In this document: positions 11,277 to 61,094 of the stretch, in pieces
Layout of the letters: every line of letters starts with the position of its first letter
How positions within the stretch are numbered: the stretch's first letter is position 1
NCBI RefSeq assembly: GCF_901686465.1
Contig: NZ_LR594487.1
Span: 2,263,020-2,327,019 of the forward strand
Direction: 5' to 3'
Origin: Halorubrum sp. DM2
GTDB lineage: Archaea > Halobacteriota > Halobacteria > Halobacteriales > Haloferacaceae
DNA length: 64,000 bases
Notes under the pieces: generated by a model
The model's database searches: none
What the model saw: only the letters and a program-made list of their open reading frames with translations
Told to the model about the DNA's origin: nothing
Program-made: the position numbers and the translations under genes

Positions 11277-11371
11277 GGCGATCCGCGGCGGGCCGGCGAC
11301 AAACCGGTGTCGGAACCGGCGACAACGCGCCCGGGGTTGTCGATGTCTTACATCTCTCTACGCAGTCTCGA

Positions 11372-11706
11372 TGGCGCGCGCCTGCGAGCGGTCGCCACAG
11401 GCGACCGCGAAGCAGCGTCGCGCGAGGGAGTCGGTCACCGGAGCGAAGCGGAGGTGACCGACGAGGTTGGGGAGGTGTGAGGGCGGTGCTGTGTGGTGCG
11501 GGGCGGTGCGGAACGGTGCGGGGCGGGAATCGAAGGGGCAGCCGCGAGGACGAAGACGCGCGACGCAAGGACCACAACGAGGGAGCGATAGCGACCGAGT
11601 GAGGACCGCAGCGAGCGCATCGAGTCCTCGCGGCTGGGGCTTCGGCGGTTGTGTTCACGTTAGTGACTACGTATCACCGAGCTGCTGGGACTTCGGCGGT
11701 TGTGTT
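11372..11706 (-). repeat. Dispersed structured element, copy 1
   Basis: Copy in minus orientation of an element also found at about 20470 and 32565 (plus). Read on the minus strand it begins with two CCGCCGAAGYCCCAGC boxes (within 11684-11706 and 11634-11656). Three inverted repeats follow: stem A (11624-11636 with 11539-11551, 13 bp), stem B (11453-11462 with 11430-11439, 10 bp) and stem C (11400-11408 with 11388-11396, 9 bp). It ends in GGCGCGCGCCAT. It lies between divergent genes and points toward the DUF4442 gene. ORFs inside it are not credible. Confidence 0.85.
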
Positions 11707-19430: not shown

Positions 19431-20430
19431 GGACGGTGTCCCCGACCTCGACCTGACGAGCGAGCGCAACGGGGCCGACCCGTTCGCCGACGACCAGTCC
19501 GGTGACGAGGGGTCCGGTGACGAGGGGTCCGGTGACGAGGAGTTCGACGCGGCCGACGATCCCGCTTCCGACCCGGGTGACGACCCCGCTCCCGGCCCTG
19601 ACGTGACCGGCGTCTCGCCGCCGGACGAGACCGACGACGACGAGGTCGAACCCGTCGAACTCCTCGTCCAACTCGCCGAGGAGGGGGAGATCGAGCCGTG
19701 GGACATCGACATCGTACAGGTGACGGACGCCTTCTTGGAGAAGCTCGACGAGACGGACCTCCGAACGACCGGGCGGGCGCTGTTTTACGCCAGCGTCTTA
19801 CTCCGCATGAAAAGCGACGGCATGCTGGCCGACGACGACGAGGATGAGGAGCCGGAACCGGAGCCGTGGGAGGTCGCGATGGAGGGCGGCGCGCCCGACC
19901 CCGCGGACGGCGACTTCGACCCCGTCGACGAGCTGGAAGCCGAGATGGACCGTCGGCTCGACCGCAAGAACACCCGGGGATCGCCGGAGACGCTCGACGA
20001 ACTCGTCCGCGAACTGCGCGAGGCCGAGCGCGGCTCGTGGTGGAAAGAGTCCCGCGAGTACGACACCTCCGAGTCGCCGAGCGGCCACGCCCGCGGCACG
20101 CAGACGCTCGATTACCACACGGGCGACGAGTTCCGGCAGGACGGCGAGCCGACCGCGGGCGAGGCGACCGACCGCACCCACGACGAGGACATCGAGGAGG
20201 TGATAGTCGAGATCGACAACGCCCTCCGGACGCACTTCGACCGCGGGCGCACGGAGGTGCTGTTCGCCGAGATCGAGAGCGCGGGCGGGCGACCCTTCAT
20301 GACGTACCTCGCGCTCCTCTTTATGGCCCACCGCGGCTCGGTCCGGCTCCAGCAGGACGAGCTGTTCGGCGACCTGTGGGTGAAAGATCCGACGGCGATG
20401 ACCGGAGAGTCGGAAGCGATCGCGGACTAA
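19423..20430 (+). CDS. scpA: Segregation and condensation protein ScpA (kleisin)
   Basis: Kleisin that bridges the SMC heads. The conserved ScpA core starts at EPVELLVQLAEEGEIEPWDI (about residue 75) and continues through DAFLEKLDETDLRTTGRALF; the C-terminal winged helix (THFDRGRTEVLFAEIESAGG onward) binds the SMC head. An acidic disordered N-terminal tail of about 70 residues contains the near-repeats SGDEGSGDEGSGDEE. The ATG lies inside the smc coding end (eight-base overlap). ScpB is not visible nearby. Confidence 0.93.
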   Translation: MTEDGVPDLDLTSERNGADPFADDQSGDEGSGDEGSGDEEFDAADDPASDPGDDPAPGPDVTGVSPPDETDDDEVEPVELLVQLAEEGEIEPWDIDIVQVTDAFLEKLDETDLRTTGRALFYASVLLRMKSDGMLADDDEDEEPEPEPWEVAMEGGAPDPADGDFDPVDELEAEMDRRLDRKNTRGSPETLDELVRELREAERGSWWKESREYDTSESPSGHARGTQTLDYHTGDEFRQDGEPTAGEATDRTHDEDIEEVIVEIDNALRTHFDRGRTEVLFAEIESAGGRPFMTYLALLFMAHRGSVRLQQDELFGDLWVKDPTAMTGESEAIAD

Positions 20431-20469
20431 TACGTTTCCGGTTATAAATCGCTGATCGACACGGACACT

Positions 20470-20775
20470 CCCGAAGCCCCAGCCGCTCGCTACGACGAAA
20501 CCGACGCCGTGACCGAGACCGCCGAAGCCCCAGCCGCGAGGCGGGCGCACGCTCGCTGTGGTCCTCAGTCGCTCACTTCGTTCGCTCCTTGCGGTCCTTG
20601 CTTCGCCTCCGCCCGCCTCGCGGCTGCCCCTTCGAGTCCCACCCCACACAGCGACCGCACCTCACACCTCCCCAGCCTCGTCGGTCGCCGTCGCTTCGCT
20701 CGGCGACCGACTCCCTCGCGCGTGCTGGCTCGCGGCCTGTCGGCCGCTCGCAGGCGCGCGCCACCGCACCGCAGA
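20470..20775 (+). repeat. Dispersed structured element, copy 2
   Basis: Plus-strand copy located between the convergent scpA and MTA phosphorylase genes. Two CCGAAGCCCCAGCC boxes (20471-20484 and 20523-20535) are followed by stem A (20531-20547 with 20610-20626, 17 bp perfect), a conserved GCCCCTTCGAGTCCCACCC segment, stem B (20680-20690 with 20701-20711, 11 bp perfect) and stem C (20732-20737 with 20742-20747, 6 bp). It ends GGCGCGCGCCACCGCA. Compared with copies 1 and 3, stem bases change on both sides so that pairing is kept. Its 3' end lies a few bases from the stop codon of the minus-strand gene. Confidence 0.88.
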
Positions 20776-32564: not shown

Positions 32565-32878
32565 CCGCCGAAGCCCCAGCCGGTCGGCTGTACGCTGCTG
32601 ATCTCGTCGCGACTGTGACCGCCGAAGCCCCAGTCGGGAGGACTCGCGCGACTCGTTGCGCTCCTCGCTCGGTCACTTCGCTCCCTCGCTGCGGTGCTTA
32701 TATCGTCGTGCTTCGTCCTCCCGACTGCCCCTTCGAGTCCCACCCGACCGCACAGCACCTCACGCCTCCCCAGCCTCGTCGCTGGCGGTCGTCGCTTCGC
32801 TCGACCGCCAGCGACTCCCTCGCGCGGCGCTCCGTCGCGGTCGCCGGGGGCGACCGCTCGGAGGCGCGCGCCACCGCA
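32565..32878 (+). repeat. Dispersed structured element, copy 3
   Basis: Plus-strand copy between the small membrane protein and purL. CCGCCGAAGCCCCAGC boxes stand at 32565-32580 and 32619-32633. Stem A is 32631-32643 with 32715-32727 (13 bp), stem B 32778-32791 with 32802-32815 (14 bp) and stem C 32837-32845 with 32849-32857 (9 bp). The conserved linkers GCCCCTTCGAGTCCCACCC and CCTCACGCCTCCCCAGCCTCGTCG are present. Stem sequences differ from copy 2 yet remain complementary. Confidence 0.88.
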
Positions 32879-32974
32879 CAGAATCTCAAGTCAGTTCGGC
32901 GTCGCGGTCGGCTCGATCAACACGAACGTGCGTATAGAAAAGCATTAGAACCGGCTCGGTGACCACGTGAGTGA

Positions 32975-41831: not shown

Positions 41832-43271
41832 ATGGCACGAAAACGTAGCCGGAGCCGAAGCCGGTCGGGCGGTGGGATAAGCCGCCGCTCCGTTCTGCTG
41901 CTTCTGGGTGTCGGGACCGCCAGCGCGACCGGCGCGTACACGACCGGCGCGTTTGACTCAGTTTCTGGCGACCGTTCGATCGGCGTCGACACCGCGGGCG
42001 ACGATACGGCGCTGCTCGGCGTCGACACCGAGGACCGCTCCGGGACCGACGGCGAGACGATCACGCTGTTGGAACTGACGAACCAGTTCGGTCAACCGAT
42101 CGAGTCGATCGACGCCGAGGTGGTCGGCGGGTCCGACGGGCCGGTCGACCCGAACTCGCTGCGGACGCCGATCGGGTTGGCTCCGGGTGAGTCCGGCGTC
42201 GTCGAGGCTGACCTGTCGTGTGAGACCAGCCGCGACACGACCGTCGAGGTCGCGGTCACCGTGACCGGAGCGGACCAGTCGGTCGATCTCACCCGGTCCG
42301 TCGACGTGAGCTGTACGGTCCCGGATCGGGGCGTGTGCGCGCCGCGCACGCCGTCGGGTTGTACGGACGCGGAGTTCCCGCCGTGGGGCGGCACCGACTG
42401 TAGCGTCGTGATCGACACCACCGGAGAAGTCTCCGAGCGGATCGGCGGCGGGATCGAGGTCGGCGGTGCCGTCGACATCCGGACGGACAGTGCGGTCGAT
42501 ATCACCCATCGCGGGAGCGTCGGTGACTACTTCGGTATCGACACCGACGGCGAGATCGCCTTCTCCATGGGCGGCGGCGCGACGGTCGGCGGTCCACTTC
42601 AGCTGTCGACGCCGGACGAGGTGACCGCCGACATCAGCGGAAGCGTTGCCGGCGGATTCTGTGCCGACGAGGCGGGCAACCTCACCGTGACCGTCGGCCG
42701 CGGGGGGAGCGTCGGCGGACCGATGTCCCTGACGTCGAACGATGAAGTGACCGTCGATCTGAACGGTAACGCGTCGGTGGGACCGCTTTCTATCGAGGCG
42801 TCCAGTGAGGTCGACGTGAGCCTCGGCGGCGGCTCGGAGATCGACGGAGACATCGACATCGAGACGCCCGACGGCGTGAATTTGACGCTGGATGGTAACG
42901 AGCGGATCCGTGGCGACGTGTTGATCACGAGCGAAGACGAGGTGGGAATCGAACTCTCCGGTAGCTCGACGATCGAGGGCGACGTGACGATCGACACGCC
43001 CGGCGAAGTGGAGATCGAACTCGGCGGTCGCTCGTCGATCGGCGGCGACGTGACAGTCACGAACGAGGACGAGGTGGGGATCGAGCTCGGCGGCAGCTCG
43101 TCGATCGGCGGCGGCGCGACGGTCACGAGCGAAGGCGAGGTAGCGATCGAGCTCGGCGGCCGCTCGTCGGTCGGCGGTGATGTCGCGATCGACACCTCGG
43201 ACGAGGCGTCCGTCTCCGACTGTACCGCGGTGGTCGGGAGCGTCACCCCGCAGAGTGCGTGCGGCGGGTAG
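41832..43271 (+). CDS. Secreted SipW-type protein with beta-solenoid repeats, 479 aa
   Basis: After a basic start (ARKRSRSRSRSGGGISRRS) comes a hydrophobic signal and the junction TGAYTTGAFDSV, then RSIGVDTAGDDTALLGV, the same mature module as in the gene at 44024. Residues to about 155 form a beta domain (ITLLELTNQFGQPIESIDAE). A Cys cluster (CTVPDRGVCAPRTPSGC) follows. From about residue 195 to the end there are roughly a dozen imperfect repeats of 20-25 residues with the pattern DEVxIELGGxSxIGGDVxI, predicting a long beta-helix. Two Cys lie at the very end (SDCTAVVG, SACGG). Probably an extracellular rod-like surface or matrix protein. Confidence 0.75.
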   Translation: MARKRSRSRSRSGGGISRRSVLLLLGVGTASATGAYTTGAFDSVSGDRSIGVDTAGDDTALLGVDTEDRSGTDGETITLLELTNQFGQPIESIDAEVVGGSDGPVDPNSLRTPIGLAPGESGVVEADLSCETSRDTTVEVAVTVTGADQSVDLTRSVDVSCTVPDRGVCAPRTPSGCTDAEFPPWGGTDCSVVIDTTGEVSERIGGGIEVGGAVDIRTDSAVDITHRGSVGDYFGIDTDGEIAFSMGGGATVGGPLQLSTPDEVTADISGSVAGGFCADEAGNLTVTVGRGGSVGGPMSLTSNDEVTVDLNGNASVGPLSIEASSEVDVSLGGGSEIDGDIDIETPDGVNLTLDGNERIRGDVLITSEDEVGIELSGSSTIEGDVTIDTPGEVEIELGGRSSIGGDVTVTNEDEVGIELGGSSSIGGGATVTSEGEVAIELGGRSSVGGDVAIDTSDEASVSDCTAVVGSVTPQSACGG

Positions 43272-48105: not shown

Positions 48106-49527
48106 TCACTCCAGTCGGACGCCGACCGAGTCGATCGAGACGACCTCGTCGAACAGCGGCTTGAGCGTGTTGACGTTCTGCGGGTCGCCCGCACGCGGGT
48201 CGACGTGGAAGTGCGCGATCACGCCCGCTCCCTGAAGCGTCCCGAGGAAGACGTGGAGGAACCGGAACGCGCTCTGGACGTCCTTGTACTTGAGGAGGAC
48301 GTTCACCGAGTCGTAACACACGACGATCCCGTTGTCGTCTTCCGCCCAGCTCTCGACGGTTCCCGAGATGAGGATCCCGAGCCGGGTGATGTCGTTCGGA
48401 TTGTTGATCGAGGCGACTTCCACCTCGTCGCGCACGTCGTCCGGAACGGACTGTGAGTAACCGATCGCGACGAGTTTCGTTCGGTGTGCCGCGCTCGCGA
48501 TCGCTTCGAGCTGCTCGGGATCCATTCGGCGGTATCTGACGAGGAGTACGTCGCGCGCGGTCGCCGCCGTTTCGAGGCCGAGCAGGTCCCGACAGGCGGC
48601 GTGTTTTCGCTCGTCCTGTGACCCGCACTCGACGAGGGCGCTCGTTCCCGGCTCCAGATCGAGTCCGGCCGGCCGTTGGTAGCTCTCCTCGGGCCCAGCG
48701 GCAAGGTCACCGCCGCTCGTCGACGCGGTCCCGCCGCGCAACAGCGGCTCCGACTGACCCTCCTCCGTCGTACCAGACTCCGGAGACGCCCTCGAAGTGC
48801 CCTCGCGACTGTCCTCACGGTTCCACAGTCGACGACGCTCGGAGCGTTCTTCCCCCTCATCGTCCCCACGCGAGTCGTCGTCCCCACGCGAGTCGTCGTC
48901 CCCACGCGAGTCGTCGTCCCCACGCGAGTCGTCGTCCCCACGCGAGTCGTCGTCTCCACGAGAGTCGTTTTGCCCGGCCGCGTCGGCAGTCGACTCGGTC
49001 TCGGCGTCTCCGTTCCGCTCGGACGCGTCGGCGGGAACGGCGTCGTCCGGGTCGTCGTCCGCCGTCGCGTCCGGTTCGCTGAGAGACGCCTCGTCGTCCG
49101 CTCTGTCGTCATCCCAGACCCGGCGACCGGCCGACGCATCGTCGATCTGCGCCTGCTCGTCTCTCCGCCCCTCGTCGTCGGCCTCGCCGTCGGACGCCTC
49201 GGCGGGCCCTCCGTCGCGTCCGGACTCCGTCGACTCGCGCGTGTCGCGCTCGTTGTCATCCCCGATCCACTCCCACGAGTCTGCCGGACCGTTCCCGGAC
49301 CGCTCTTCCGTGTCTTCCGGTCCGGCTGAGTCCGTTCCGTCGACGTCGTTCTCGCCGCCGTCGCTCCCGTCGGCGTCAGCCTCGGTCGACCCGTCCGAGC
49401 CGGACGAGGTCGATCCCTCAAGCCGCTCTCTGAACTCGCCGAACCGCGACGATCGGTCGTCCGTCCCGGTCACTTCCGTGTCGGGCTCGTCGGCTTGTCG
49501 CTTACCGTCGTCGCGCTCGTCGCTCAT
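48106..49527 (-). CDS. RecA/KaiC-fold protein lacking Walker A, with long acidic repeat region
   Basis: The C-terminal 200 residues have a RecA/KaiC-like pattern, with strands DVLLVRYRRMDPEQLEAIAS and NGIVVCYDSVNVLLKYKDVQ in place of Walker B and FLGTLQGAGVIAHFHVDP after it. The position of Walker A reads GTSALVECGSQDERKHAAC with no GKT/S, so ATP hydrolysis is unlikely. The N-terminal 270 residues are acidic and disordered and include six SRGDDD units. ATG 49527 is preferred. The gene ends four bases before the DUF5305 start and is transcribed toward it, so it may be a cytoplasmic partner of the export cluster. Confidence 0.72.
   Translation of the reverse strand: MSDERDDGKRQADEPDTEVTGTDDRSSRFGEFRERLEGSTSSGSDGSTEADADGSDGGENDVDGTDSAGPEDTEERSGNGPADSWEWIGDDNERDTRESTESGRDGGPAEASDGEADDEGRRDEQAQIDDASAGRRVWDDDRADDEASLSEPDATADDDPDDAVPADASERNGDAETESTADAAGQNDSRGDDDSRGDDDSRGDDDSRGDDDSRGDDDSRGDDEGEERSERRRLWNREDSREGTSRASPESGTTEEGQSEPLLRGGTASTSGGDLAAGPEESYQRPAGLDLEPGTSALVECGSQDERKHAACRDLLGLETAATARDVLLVRYRRMDPEQLEAIASAAHRTKLVAIGYSQSVPDDVRDEVEVASINNPNDITRLGILISGTVESWAEDDNGIVVCYDSVNVLLKYKDVQSAFRFLHVFLGTLQGAGVIAHFHVDPRAGDPQNVNTLKPLFDEVVSIDSVGVRLE
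48860..48967. repeat. Six tandem 18-bp units encoding SRGDDD
   Basis: The plus strand repeats tcgtccccacgcgagtcg about six times, the last unit slightly degenerate (ctccacgagagtcg). The repeats lie within the coding sequence of the RecA-fold protein and keep its frame. Near-identity of the units indicates recent slippage or unequal exchange. Confidence 0.85.
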
Positions 49528-58305: not shown

Positions 58306-59031
58306 ATGCAAGCCGTCGTACTGGCCGCCGGCGAGGGGACACGGCTGCGCCCGCTCACGGAGGACAAACCGAAGGGGATGGTCGAGGTCGACGGGAAGCC
58401 CATCCTGACGCACTGTTTCGAGCAGCTCGCCGACCTCGGTGCCGACGAGTTCGTCGTCGTCGTGGGGTATCTCAAAGAGGCGATTATCGACCACTACGGC
58501 GACGAATTCGACGGCATTCCGATCACGTACGCCCACCAGCGCGACCAGCAGGGGTTGGCTCACGCGCTGTTGACCGTCGAAGAGCACGTCGACGACGACT
58601 TCATGCTCATGTTGGGCGACAACGTCTTCCAGGCGAACTTAGAGGACGTGGTGCGACGCCAGCGCGAGGACCGCGCGGACGCGGCGTTTCTCGTCGAGGA
58701 GGTCGACTGGGAGGACGCGTCGCGGTACGGGGTGTGTGACACGAACAAGTACGGCGAGATCACGGATGTGGTGGAGAAGCCCGACGACCCGCCGTCGAAT
58801 CTGGTGATGACCGGCTTCTACACGTTCACGCCCGCGATCTTCCACGCGTGTCACCTCGTCCAACCGTCGAACCGTGGGGAGTACGAGATTTCGGAGGCGA
58901 TCGACCTGTTGATTCAGAGCGGCCGAACGATCGACGCCATCGGACTGGAGGGCTGGCGGATCGACGTGGGGTATCCCGAGGACCGGGACGAGGCCGAGCG
59001 GCGGTTGCAGGACGAGGAGGTAGAGGCTTGA
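58306..59031 (+). CDS. Sugar nucleotidyltransferase (AglF-like)
   Basis: A 241-residue glucose-1-phosphate-type nucleotidyltransferase. Start MQAVVLAAGEGTRLRPLTED, metal site MLMLGDNVFQ and substrate segment EKPDDPPSNLVMTGFY are typical; the haloarchaeal glycosylation enzyme AglF is of this class. ATG 58306 is preferred over the longer frame from 58267. Its final 195 bases have an 83 percent identical partner at 60800-60994. The stop TGA lies in TTGAC, next to an IS605-like end. Confidence 0.86.
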   Translation: MQAVVLAAGEGTRLRPLTEDKPKGMVEVDGKPILTHCFEQLADLGADEFVVVVGYLKEAIIDHYGDEFDGIPITYAHQRDQQGLAHALLTVEEHVDDDFMLMLGDNVFQANLEDVVRRQREDRADAAFLVEEVDWEDASRYGVCDTNKYGEITDVVEKPDDPPSNLVMTGFYTFTPAIFHACHLVQPSNRGEYEISEAIDLLIQSGRTIDAIGLEGWRIDVGYPEDRDEAERRLQDEEVEA

Positions 59032-59075
59032 CATCCTCTCCGCGCTGAAACGCGAGGCTTTCTCCTTGATTCTCC
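59027..59075 (-). mobile_element. IS200/IS605-like end joined to the AglF-like stop codon
   Basis: CTTGACATCC border (59027-59036) followed by the hairpin CGCG-CTGAAA-CGCG (59041-59054) and GAGGCTTTC. On the minus strand it ends GGATGTCAAG, like the relic at 51056-51065. The homologous tail copy at 60994 reads TGACAAAATC at this place, so the sequence after TGAC was added here. Confidence 0.6.
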
Positions 59076-60799: not shown

Positions 60800-60994
60800 A
60801 TCTTCCACGCGTGTCATCTCGTTCAGCCGTCGAATCGTGGTGAGTACGAGATCAGCGAGGCTATCGACTTACTGATTCAGAGCGGGCGGACGATCGACGC
60901 GATCGGACTAGAGGGCTGGCGGATCGACGCAGGGTATCCCGAAGATCGAGAGGAGGCTGAGCGGCGGTCACAGGGAGGGGAAGTGGAAGCCTGA
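60800..60994 (+). pseudogene. 3' fragment of an AglF-like nucleotidyltransferase gene
   Basis: The frame encodes the last 64 residues of an AglF-like protein (IFHACHLVQPSNRGEYEISE onward to EVEA-stop). It aligns without gaps to 58837-59031 with about 33 differences in 195 bases, many of them at third codon positions. No start or catalytic part is present, so it is a truncated remnant. It lies directly after the last origin box and may be the original gene end left after the origin-cdc6 segment was inserted or exchanged. Confidence 0.82.
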
Positions 60995-61094
60995 CAAAAT
61001 CTGTTGACTCAATTAACTCAGCCTACTCTTGATTCGGTATCGATTGGACTTTTCGGTCGAATTAAGTCCACGCGTATAATGTAAACCGAACGTC

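Follow-up and report, generated by a model that had tools for sequence, protein, structure and literature searches.

Mitochondrial double-hairpin elements have stems that vary and loops that stay the same. The yeast GC42 family shows the opposite pattern, with stems more conserved than loops, according to the accessible part of its description (PMC4478555), and the accessible part of PMC2800124 contains no passages on double hairpins. REPs are described, in the part of PMC3733652 at hand, as high-copy extragenic palindromes that lie downstream of genes and between convergent genes. We analyzed a larger haloarchaeal element for which a literature search by title, start of abstract and exact sequence string, made outside the subscription papers, showed no prior description among the papers listed. 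An initial annotation assigned the element to no named family, and this agrees with Rfam, which gave 0 matches in the window; among five element loci searched at E ≤ 1, the only match was a tRNA in L127 (3892-3976), located 3' of the element.

The window, the whole 64,000-nt stretch of DNA under analysis, is part of a 3.45 Mb single-contig genome (G000). The initial annotation had described three copies of the element here, and their places, order and stems all proved correct. Each element is approximately 270-330 nt long and combines three different hairpins and constant linkers with a 5' array. From 5' to 3' along the reported strand, the repeat units are followed by stem A and, past the linker CCTCACNCCTCCCCAGCCTCG, by stem B; CTCCCTCGCGC separates stem B from stem C, after which the element closes with GCGCGCGCCACCGCA. 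The copies examined have between one and four such units; every unit starts with the box CCGAAGCCCCAGCC, and many carry a TTTATAA-like sequence. For its outer arms, stem A uses the closing bases of the last box and the opening bases of the core string GCCCCTTCGAGTCCCACC; these arms enclose an imperfect inner helix. The distance from the last box to the core string is 102-105 nt in 48 of 62 copies.

Copy 2 is preceded by a co-oriented gene whose TAA stop codon lies at 20428-20430 (+), and its box frame is in phase with that stop (42 nt, phase 0). In the 5' module of this copy (20431-20535, +), the segment after the stop holds TTATAAAT (20442-20449), and two boxes start at 20471 and 20522, spaced 51 nt apart. 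Stem A (20531-20626, +) has outer arms at 20531-20547 and 20610-20626 around the imperfect inner hairpin. On the same strand, there follow the constant linker GCCCCTTCGAGTCCCACCCC (20626-20645), the constant linker CCTCACACCTCCCCAGCCTCG (20660-20680), which is a part kept in other genera too, stem B (20681-20710), the constant linker CTCCCTCGCGCG (20711-20722), and stem C with its GC-rich base and the 3' end GCGCGCGCCACCGCAC (20717-20769). Copy 3 (32568-32879, +) has boxes at 32568 and 32622 (spacing 54) and a core from 32727; it is an off-phase copy, at phase 1 to the upstream stop, and we take the gene downstream of it to be purL. Copy 1 (11371-11696, −) has boxes at 11696 and 11645, read on the − strand, a core from 11539 and an end near 11371, with divergent genes on either side by our own gene calls. 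The window also contains other repeats: direct 197-nt copies at 58837-59033 and 60800-60996, which are 83% alike and 1963 nt apart; five tandem 66-nt repeats at 42872-43201, the others being 61-83% alike to the reference unit; and an array of 18-nt repeats (TCGTCCCCACGCGAG...) at 48839-48982.

Within the inner helix of stem A, covarying pairs alternate with constant, non-pairing TC.TC steps (58-60 of 60-62 copies), which on the opposite strand are tandem G.A steps. The apex motif could be located in 105 of 170 candidates, and in 87 of these the inner hairpin, read on the − strand, closes with a GNA loop. Flagging by a long box-to-core distance picked out 22 of 156 distinct copies, and 20 of these 22, judged by eye, carry extra short hairpins nested inside stem A; a missed box and a duplication account for the other two, L047 and L126. 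In eleven copies (L043, L063, L073, L091, L112, L127, L129, L148, L149, L155 and L170), the nested inserts are paired hairpins, short and perfect, with loops of 3 nt and a constant linker, TGATGA or GGATGA; the stems vary from copy to copy, and the loops are GNA or its complement. A C/D-box reading of TGATGA was considered for some of the inserts. Further nested types with other linkers occur in L048, L054, L059, L099, L184, L186 and L196. At the other end of the element, TATAA is found within 33 nt 3' of 12 of 63 copies from the same genome, often as TTTATAAG, and several other copies run on into CCGCAGATCGG; together with the TTTATAAG-type flanks, this suggests two kinds of 3' extension.

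The core string, with up to 3 mismatches, has 73 + 77 matches genome-wide (approximately 150), compared to 3 + 3 for the reversed control, and the box has 91 + 90 = 181 matches, again compared to 3 + 3. The copies of the supposedly three-copy element are therefore real and beyond chance, but three is merely the window's share of about 150. The exact core string occurs in 47 named stretches, 43 from Halorubrum and 4 from one Halobacteriales MAG, and an exact 15-base pattern gives 0 to 121 matches per Halorubrum genome. That pattern suggested a genus-only repeat of wildly uneven copy number, a view overturned by the matches of covariance model R1. The initial annotation had proposed such a model for searching haloarchaeal genomes, and R1, whose E-values are rough, matches 58 of 242 genomes of the class at E ≤ 0.001. 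Among the matches listed are 30 same-genus genomes, our own included, with 14 or 15 matches each, 15 being the scoring cap; 28 further genomes have 1-8 matches, so that other genera show weaker but multiple matches. Under deeper scoring at E ≤ 0.01, ten of these 28 have 2-36 matches, including 36 in G142, 22 in G172, 12 in G161 and 10 in G100.

Copies from other haloarchaeal genera have identical linkers, different stems and different 5' parts. We fetched 60 such stretches and excluded two (L375 and L410), which are not element-like by eye, from the partner and orientation tests. G172, G161, G100 and G142 carry genome-specific subfamilies with linkers in common. A GAAAGCCC...GCCCTTTC-like frame, or part of it, surrounds stem A in G161, G033 and one G172 copy (L370). 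By eye, G142 and most G172 copies have the B-linker-C half but lack a stem A of the Halorubrum type. Long AC-rich runs (repeated accgcgacagcaccgca) often precede the B-C double hairpin in G142 (genus g18; L396-L415), replacing stem A, and many B-C halves in G172 (L356-L374) follow a different 5' motif (GCTAGCT..CNG..TGAGCCAATCAT or ACTGCCGACGCCAATCA). Searches by blastn, which would miss divergent copies, found only one match among plasmid records and 0 among phage records. Two other-genus copies, L369 and L404, lie on contigs of 303 kb and 179 kb that are possibly secondary replicons. The IMG/VR matches L140 and L141 contain two and one box-like strings, respectively. We rejected a virus-borne element, because the linker before stem B is present in 0 of 9 IMG/VR pattern matches and phage matches by blastn number 0.

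Covariation of the stems was assessed in an alignment of 62 copies, one of 63 having been excluded because it has no box. The null was an R-scape-like, tree-based one of our own making, in which substitutions were reassigned along a FastTree tree in 100 replicates; it assumes a single tree, and recombination among copies breaks that assumption. As the initial annotation required of a larger alignment, covariation was found: 6 column pairs reached E ≤ 0.05, with 5 of these at least 85% standard pairs, and 8 reached E ≤ 0.5, with 7 at least 85% standard. The nine top-scoring column pairs are all nested stem pairs with E < 1, and 3 pairs remain when the cut is raised to exceed every one of 60 null replicates. 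A second alignment, A2, covers the B-C half in 55 of the 90 copies that were parsed; copies with other types of hairpin were excluded, along with some others, without a set rule. In A2, 96.4% of 1582 stem cells pair, compared to 26-43% with slid partners, though hand-picking of the copies and one adjustment of the pair columns, made after an initial inspection, bias this percentage upward. Both sides change in 17 of 31 pairs (shuffled mean 11.8), amounting to 185 cells against an average of 56 after shuffling. The score is 0.307, versus 0.03-0.06 for slid and 0.117 for shuffled partners. One of five measures, the number of further pair types, gave no separation (33 versus a shuffled mean of 30.9, equalled by 88 of 500 shuffles).

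Because copies recombine and A2 was hand-chosen, we also put weight on a partner test of hairpin B. At four orthologous sites, pairing with the own partner averaged 9.22, 8.67, 9.92 and 10.07 of 12, and none of 2000 partner permutations reached these values (maxima 7.61, 7.60, 8.85 and 8.86). The own partner also beats permuted partners in G172, G161 and G100, and in our own genome it beats redrawn partners, which are not true permutations. G142 gave a tie with the permutations at n = 5, with 6 of 19 copies parsed. For hairpin C, the own partner was not above permuted partners in four other genomes and scored 7.14 versus 7.13 in our own, a negative result that we attribute to the constant GC base of the stem within the span used; covariation of this hairpin rests on the 62-copy tree null and the A2 counts. 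Across 20 aligned loci of one site, some of them truncated and one (L179) without stem B, the linkers are constant while the stems vary. Many variable pairs swap G-C for C-G, and mismatched intermediates are few. Together, these results show that stem covariation is real across copies. The original observation that stems differ yet stay complementary thus extends to the 62- and 55-copy sets, to four orthologous sites and, for hairpin B, to three other genera. Simple copying, as the initial annotation had argued, fails to explain the paired changes. In addition, the conserved mismatched TC.TC steps beside covarying pairs argue that shape is read, and not palindromy alone.

Covariation supports the helices but does not distinguish RNA from single-stranded DNA. 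Each strand folds more stably than its shuffled versions, with z-scores of −4.8 and −5.0 as RNA and −4.8 and −3.7 as DNA (30 of 62 copies, 12 shuffles each). A first count of G.U-type pairs gave 52 A.C on the + strand versus 15 G.T, favoring the − strand, but alignment A2 gave approximately 22 T.G/G.T versus 12 A.C, contradicting the first count. We dropped strand assignment by G.U counts because the two measurements disagree. GNA-loop DNA hairpins are unusually stable, with d(GCGAAGC) melting near 78 °C, according to the available part of PMC4686876. The likeness of our element to the extra-stable mini-hairpins d(GCGNAGC) lies in the GNA loop of inner hairpin A on the − strand; the mini-hairpin is a physical motif and not a family, and the likeness shows only that a DNA fold is plausible. 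The initial interpretation of selection on RNA (or cruciform) structure is therefore partly supported: complementarity is indeed maintained, but the case for RNA is weakened by contradictory G.U evidence and frequent G-C/C-G swaps.

Gene context was determined with our own codon-usage script. The 62 copies from our genome lie between convergent genes (25), tandem co-oriented genes (20), tandem genes of opposite orientation (9) and divergent genes (7), with 1 undetermined, so that the upstream gene is co-oriented in 45 of 62. In four other genera, there is no such orientation bias (30 co-oriented versus 28 opposite), and the nearest called downstream gene faces the element in 22 of 29 cases. 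We fetched 30 loci for each of several orthologous sites, naming the genes RNase Z, PAN, purL and mtnP from their translated sequences, identities that we assume; the counts include our own locus, and loci of a site share ancestry. The element is present in 15 of 30 loci at the RNase Z site, in 16 of 30 at the PAN site, and on the purL side in 20 of 24 loci with the same upstream gene; empty sites exist at orthologous positions. On the mtnP side, 8 of 14 loci have the element in the same orientation, 2 (L162 and L164) in the opposite orientation, and 4 lack it, including L173, which retains a fragment. In L162 and L164, which come from two other Halorubrum genomes, the reversed elements sit at the corresponding intergenic position. 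The mtnP-side orientations require at least one re-insertion or inversion, and the shared, missing and reversed copies indicate that insertions are inherited and also gained or lost.

The 5' module is linked to codon phase. Repeat units less than 110 nt apart are spaced by a multiple of three in 43 of 45, 23 of 24 and 29 of 29 cases. The phase test, run on our own gene calls, was limited to copies that follow a confidently called gene of the same orientation at no more than 260 nt. The box frame matched that of the upstream stop in 25 of 34 copies of the first set, from our own genome (p = 1.9e-6), and in 16 of 22 from 47 further stretches (p = 1.8e-4). Among the loci of the four orthologous sites, 15 of 15, 12 of 16, 8 of 8 and 15 of 18 (50 of 57) have their first box in phase despite differing distances, although these loci are related and include our own, so that the counts are not independent trials. 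The periodicity test covered in-phase loci only: post-stop segments of 41 loci show three-base periodicity (chi-square 381 versus a null maximum of 112), which persists without the 36 nt next to the box (163 versus 53; 32 segments). Periodicity is absent from 134 control segments (22 versus a null maximum of 56). In-frame stops number 20 in 1354 codons of the post-stop segments, compared to 55 and 52 of 1313 in the other frames. Phase is random relative to opposite-strand upstream genes (12/12/9) and to downstream genes (21/17/19 and 15/18/14).

Selection at the protein level appears slight. Frame 0 of the post-stop module is mildly acidic (D+E 12.6%, K+R 8.6%), but substitutions among orthologous segments show no third-position bias, and synonymous changes (88 of 300) are near the neutral expectation of 25-29%; they rise modestly above expectation at one site (25 of 63), as they do in the unit spacers (18 of 50 versus 25% expected). 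An in-frame TAA within TTATAA is common in other species, spacing is still a multiple of three behind upstream genes of the opposite strand (21 of 21), and no conserved start codon was seen by eye. We rejected ordinary coding sequence: the repeat units are in frame, yet substitutions are hardly codon-like. The link is odd, in that a non-coding region holds another gene's frame without clearly holding amino acids. The phase may reflect low-level translation beyond the stop codon, or else insertion that by rule begins at a stop codon, together with very few indels. The module might be translated, now or recently, by readthrough of the upstream stop to yield an optional C-terminal tail, a reading that may be compatible with the others described below. 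The spacing, phase, periodicity, scarcity of in-frame stops, aperiodic controls, random phase of opposite-strand and downstream genes, and acidic frame 0 all speak for it; given the near-neutral substitutions, the in-frame TAA, the spacing kept without a co-oriented gene and the lack of a visible start codon, we regard it as unlikely. A decidedly unlikely extension is a mobile, frame-aware 3' module in which a structured core would be joined to a 5' module set in the upstream gene's frame past its stop. If true, occasional readthrough under some condition would add an element-coded tail and lead ribosomes into the hairpins.

The chief rival to a dispersed element is a functional structured RNA, with hairpins that would serve as a small RNA or, within the 3' part of the upstream transcript, influence its stability, processing or termination. 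The co-oriented upstream genes in our genome, the stable folds (RNA z near −5 on both strands) and the linkers held across genera are consistent with this proposal. The consulted part of PMC7237163 reports, in Haloferax volcanii, hairpins upstream of 503 termination sites and one tested coding-region hairpin that terminated 59% of transcripts. Within Halorubrum, a knockout system is reported for Hrr. lacusprofundi (PMC5052560). The orientation preference is absent outside Halorubrum, however, and a run of at least 4 T within 50 nt 3' of the element occurs in just 10 of 102 copies. Approximately 150 near-redundant copies and the contradictory G.U evidence also count against a functional RNA, which we consider somewhat unlikely.

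Palindromes could also be kept without selection if a change in one arm were copied to the other by templated repair during replication. This would suit the many G-C to C-G flips with few mismatched intermediates and the nested hairpins with perfect short stems, but not the non-complementary TC.TC steps of the inner helix, which stay uncorrected, or the conservation of linker sequences and stem positions across genera; we judge it very unlikely. Mobilization as a MITE or REP by an IS200/IS605-type (Y1) transposase would account for dispersed hairpins after gene ends, as in REPs (PMC3733652, part consulted), and Y1 genes are widespread in Halorubrum (41 of 52 genomes, with two matches in our own). 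Yet G006, G011 and G306 carry 80, 22 and 11 pattern matches and 0 Y1 (PF01797), leaving Y1 mobilization a very slim prospect; identity as a REP/RAYT system is weakened by the same element-rich genomes.

We tentatively prefer to regard the element as an old, non-autonomous, dispersed multi-hairpin element of haloarchaea that is kept for single-strand folding. Constant unpaired linkers would join hairpin A, with its imperfect inner helix, to hairpins B and C; the linkers would be recognized by sequence and the hairpins by shape, leaving the stems free to change if both arms change together. Once single-stranded, the region may fold, and a putative host or element factor may recognize hairpins and linkers. 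Copies would spread via such recognition, mostly into the space after gene ends, where harm is slight, and would then be inherited. Mobility we infer solely from presence, absence and orientation, and recognition of a single strand is likewise a proposed step in spreading. The high copy number in one genome, the paired changes in the 62- and 55-copy sets, and a hairpin B that differs between species at four orthologous sites yet fits its own partner are observed directly, as are the cross-genus linkers, the shared, missing and reversed insertions, and, in our own genome, the bias toward 3' flanks. The genome-specific subfamilies of G172, G161, G100 and G142, the nested hairpins in stem A and the conserved TC.TC steps also favor a dispersed element.

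Several observations weigh against this preferred explanation. No mobilizing enzyme was found in searches for Y1, the sole family covered, and G006 combines 80 pattern matches with 0 Y1; blastn found one plasmid and no phage record; long-lived shared positions fit a cellular function too; the phase with upstream frames is left unaccounted for; and the further-pair-types measure fails to separate structure from shuffles. Since the copies lie scattered and species differ by gains or losses, selection acting while the element spreads is no less plausible than selection on an RNA role. With stems that change freely yet remain paired, linkers shared across genera and many copies, the element amounts to a natural structure-probing experiment.

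Comparison with the described systems gives a mixed picture. Like archaeal MITEs, the element is short, non-coding and dispersed, but no terminal inverted repeats were seen, its shared positions are old, and plasmid or phage matches are few; an inverted-repeat scan of the window (minimum 30 nt) found that only the stem A arms pair within a copy. Linker-joined hairpin pairs recall mitochondrial double-hairpin elements and GC-rich hairpin repeats, which the nested stem A inserts resemble, although the double-hairpin elements are mitochondrial and shorter. With REPs and BIMEs (GTAG and CGTC families), the element shares high copy number, palindromes, extragenic position and a similar gene context, as far as the consulted part of PMC3733652 describes them. 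REPs, by contrast, are 20-40 bp long and carry a GTAG or CGTC tag, whereas the present element spans some 270-330 nt with three hairpins, linkers and a 5' array. No tag is constant across genera: the CGTC that precedes stem B in Halorubrum is absent, by eye, from most G172 and G161 copies and from all G100 copies, and the RAYT/Y1 association of REPs does not extend to G006, G011 and G306, which carry the element without a PF01797 match. The element works like a REP-type or double-hairpin dispersed element, but it fails the defining REP features that were tested, and we do not class it as a REP.
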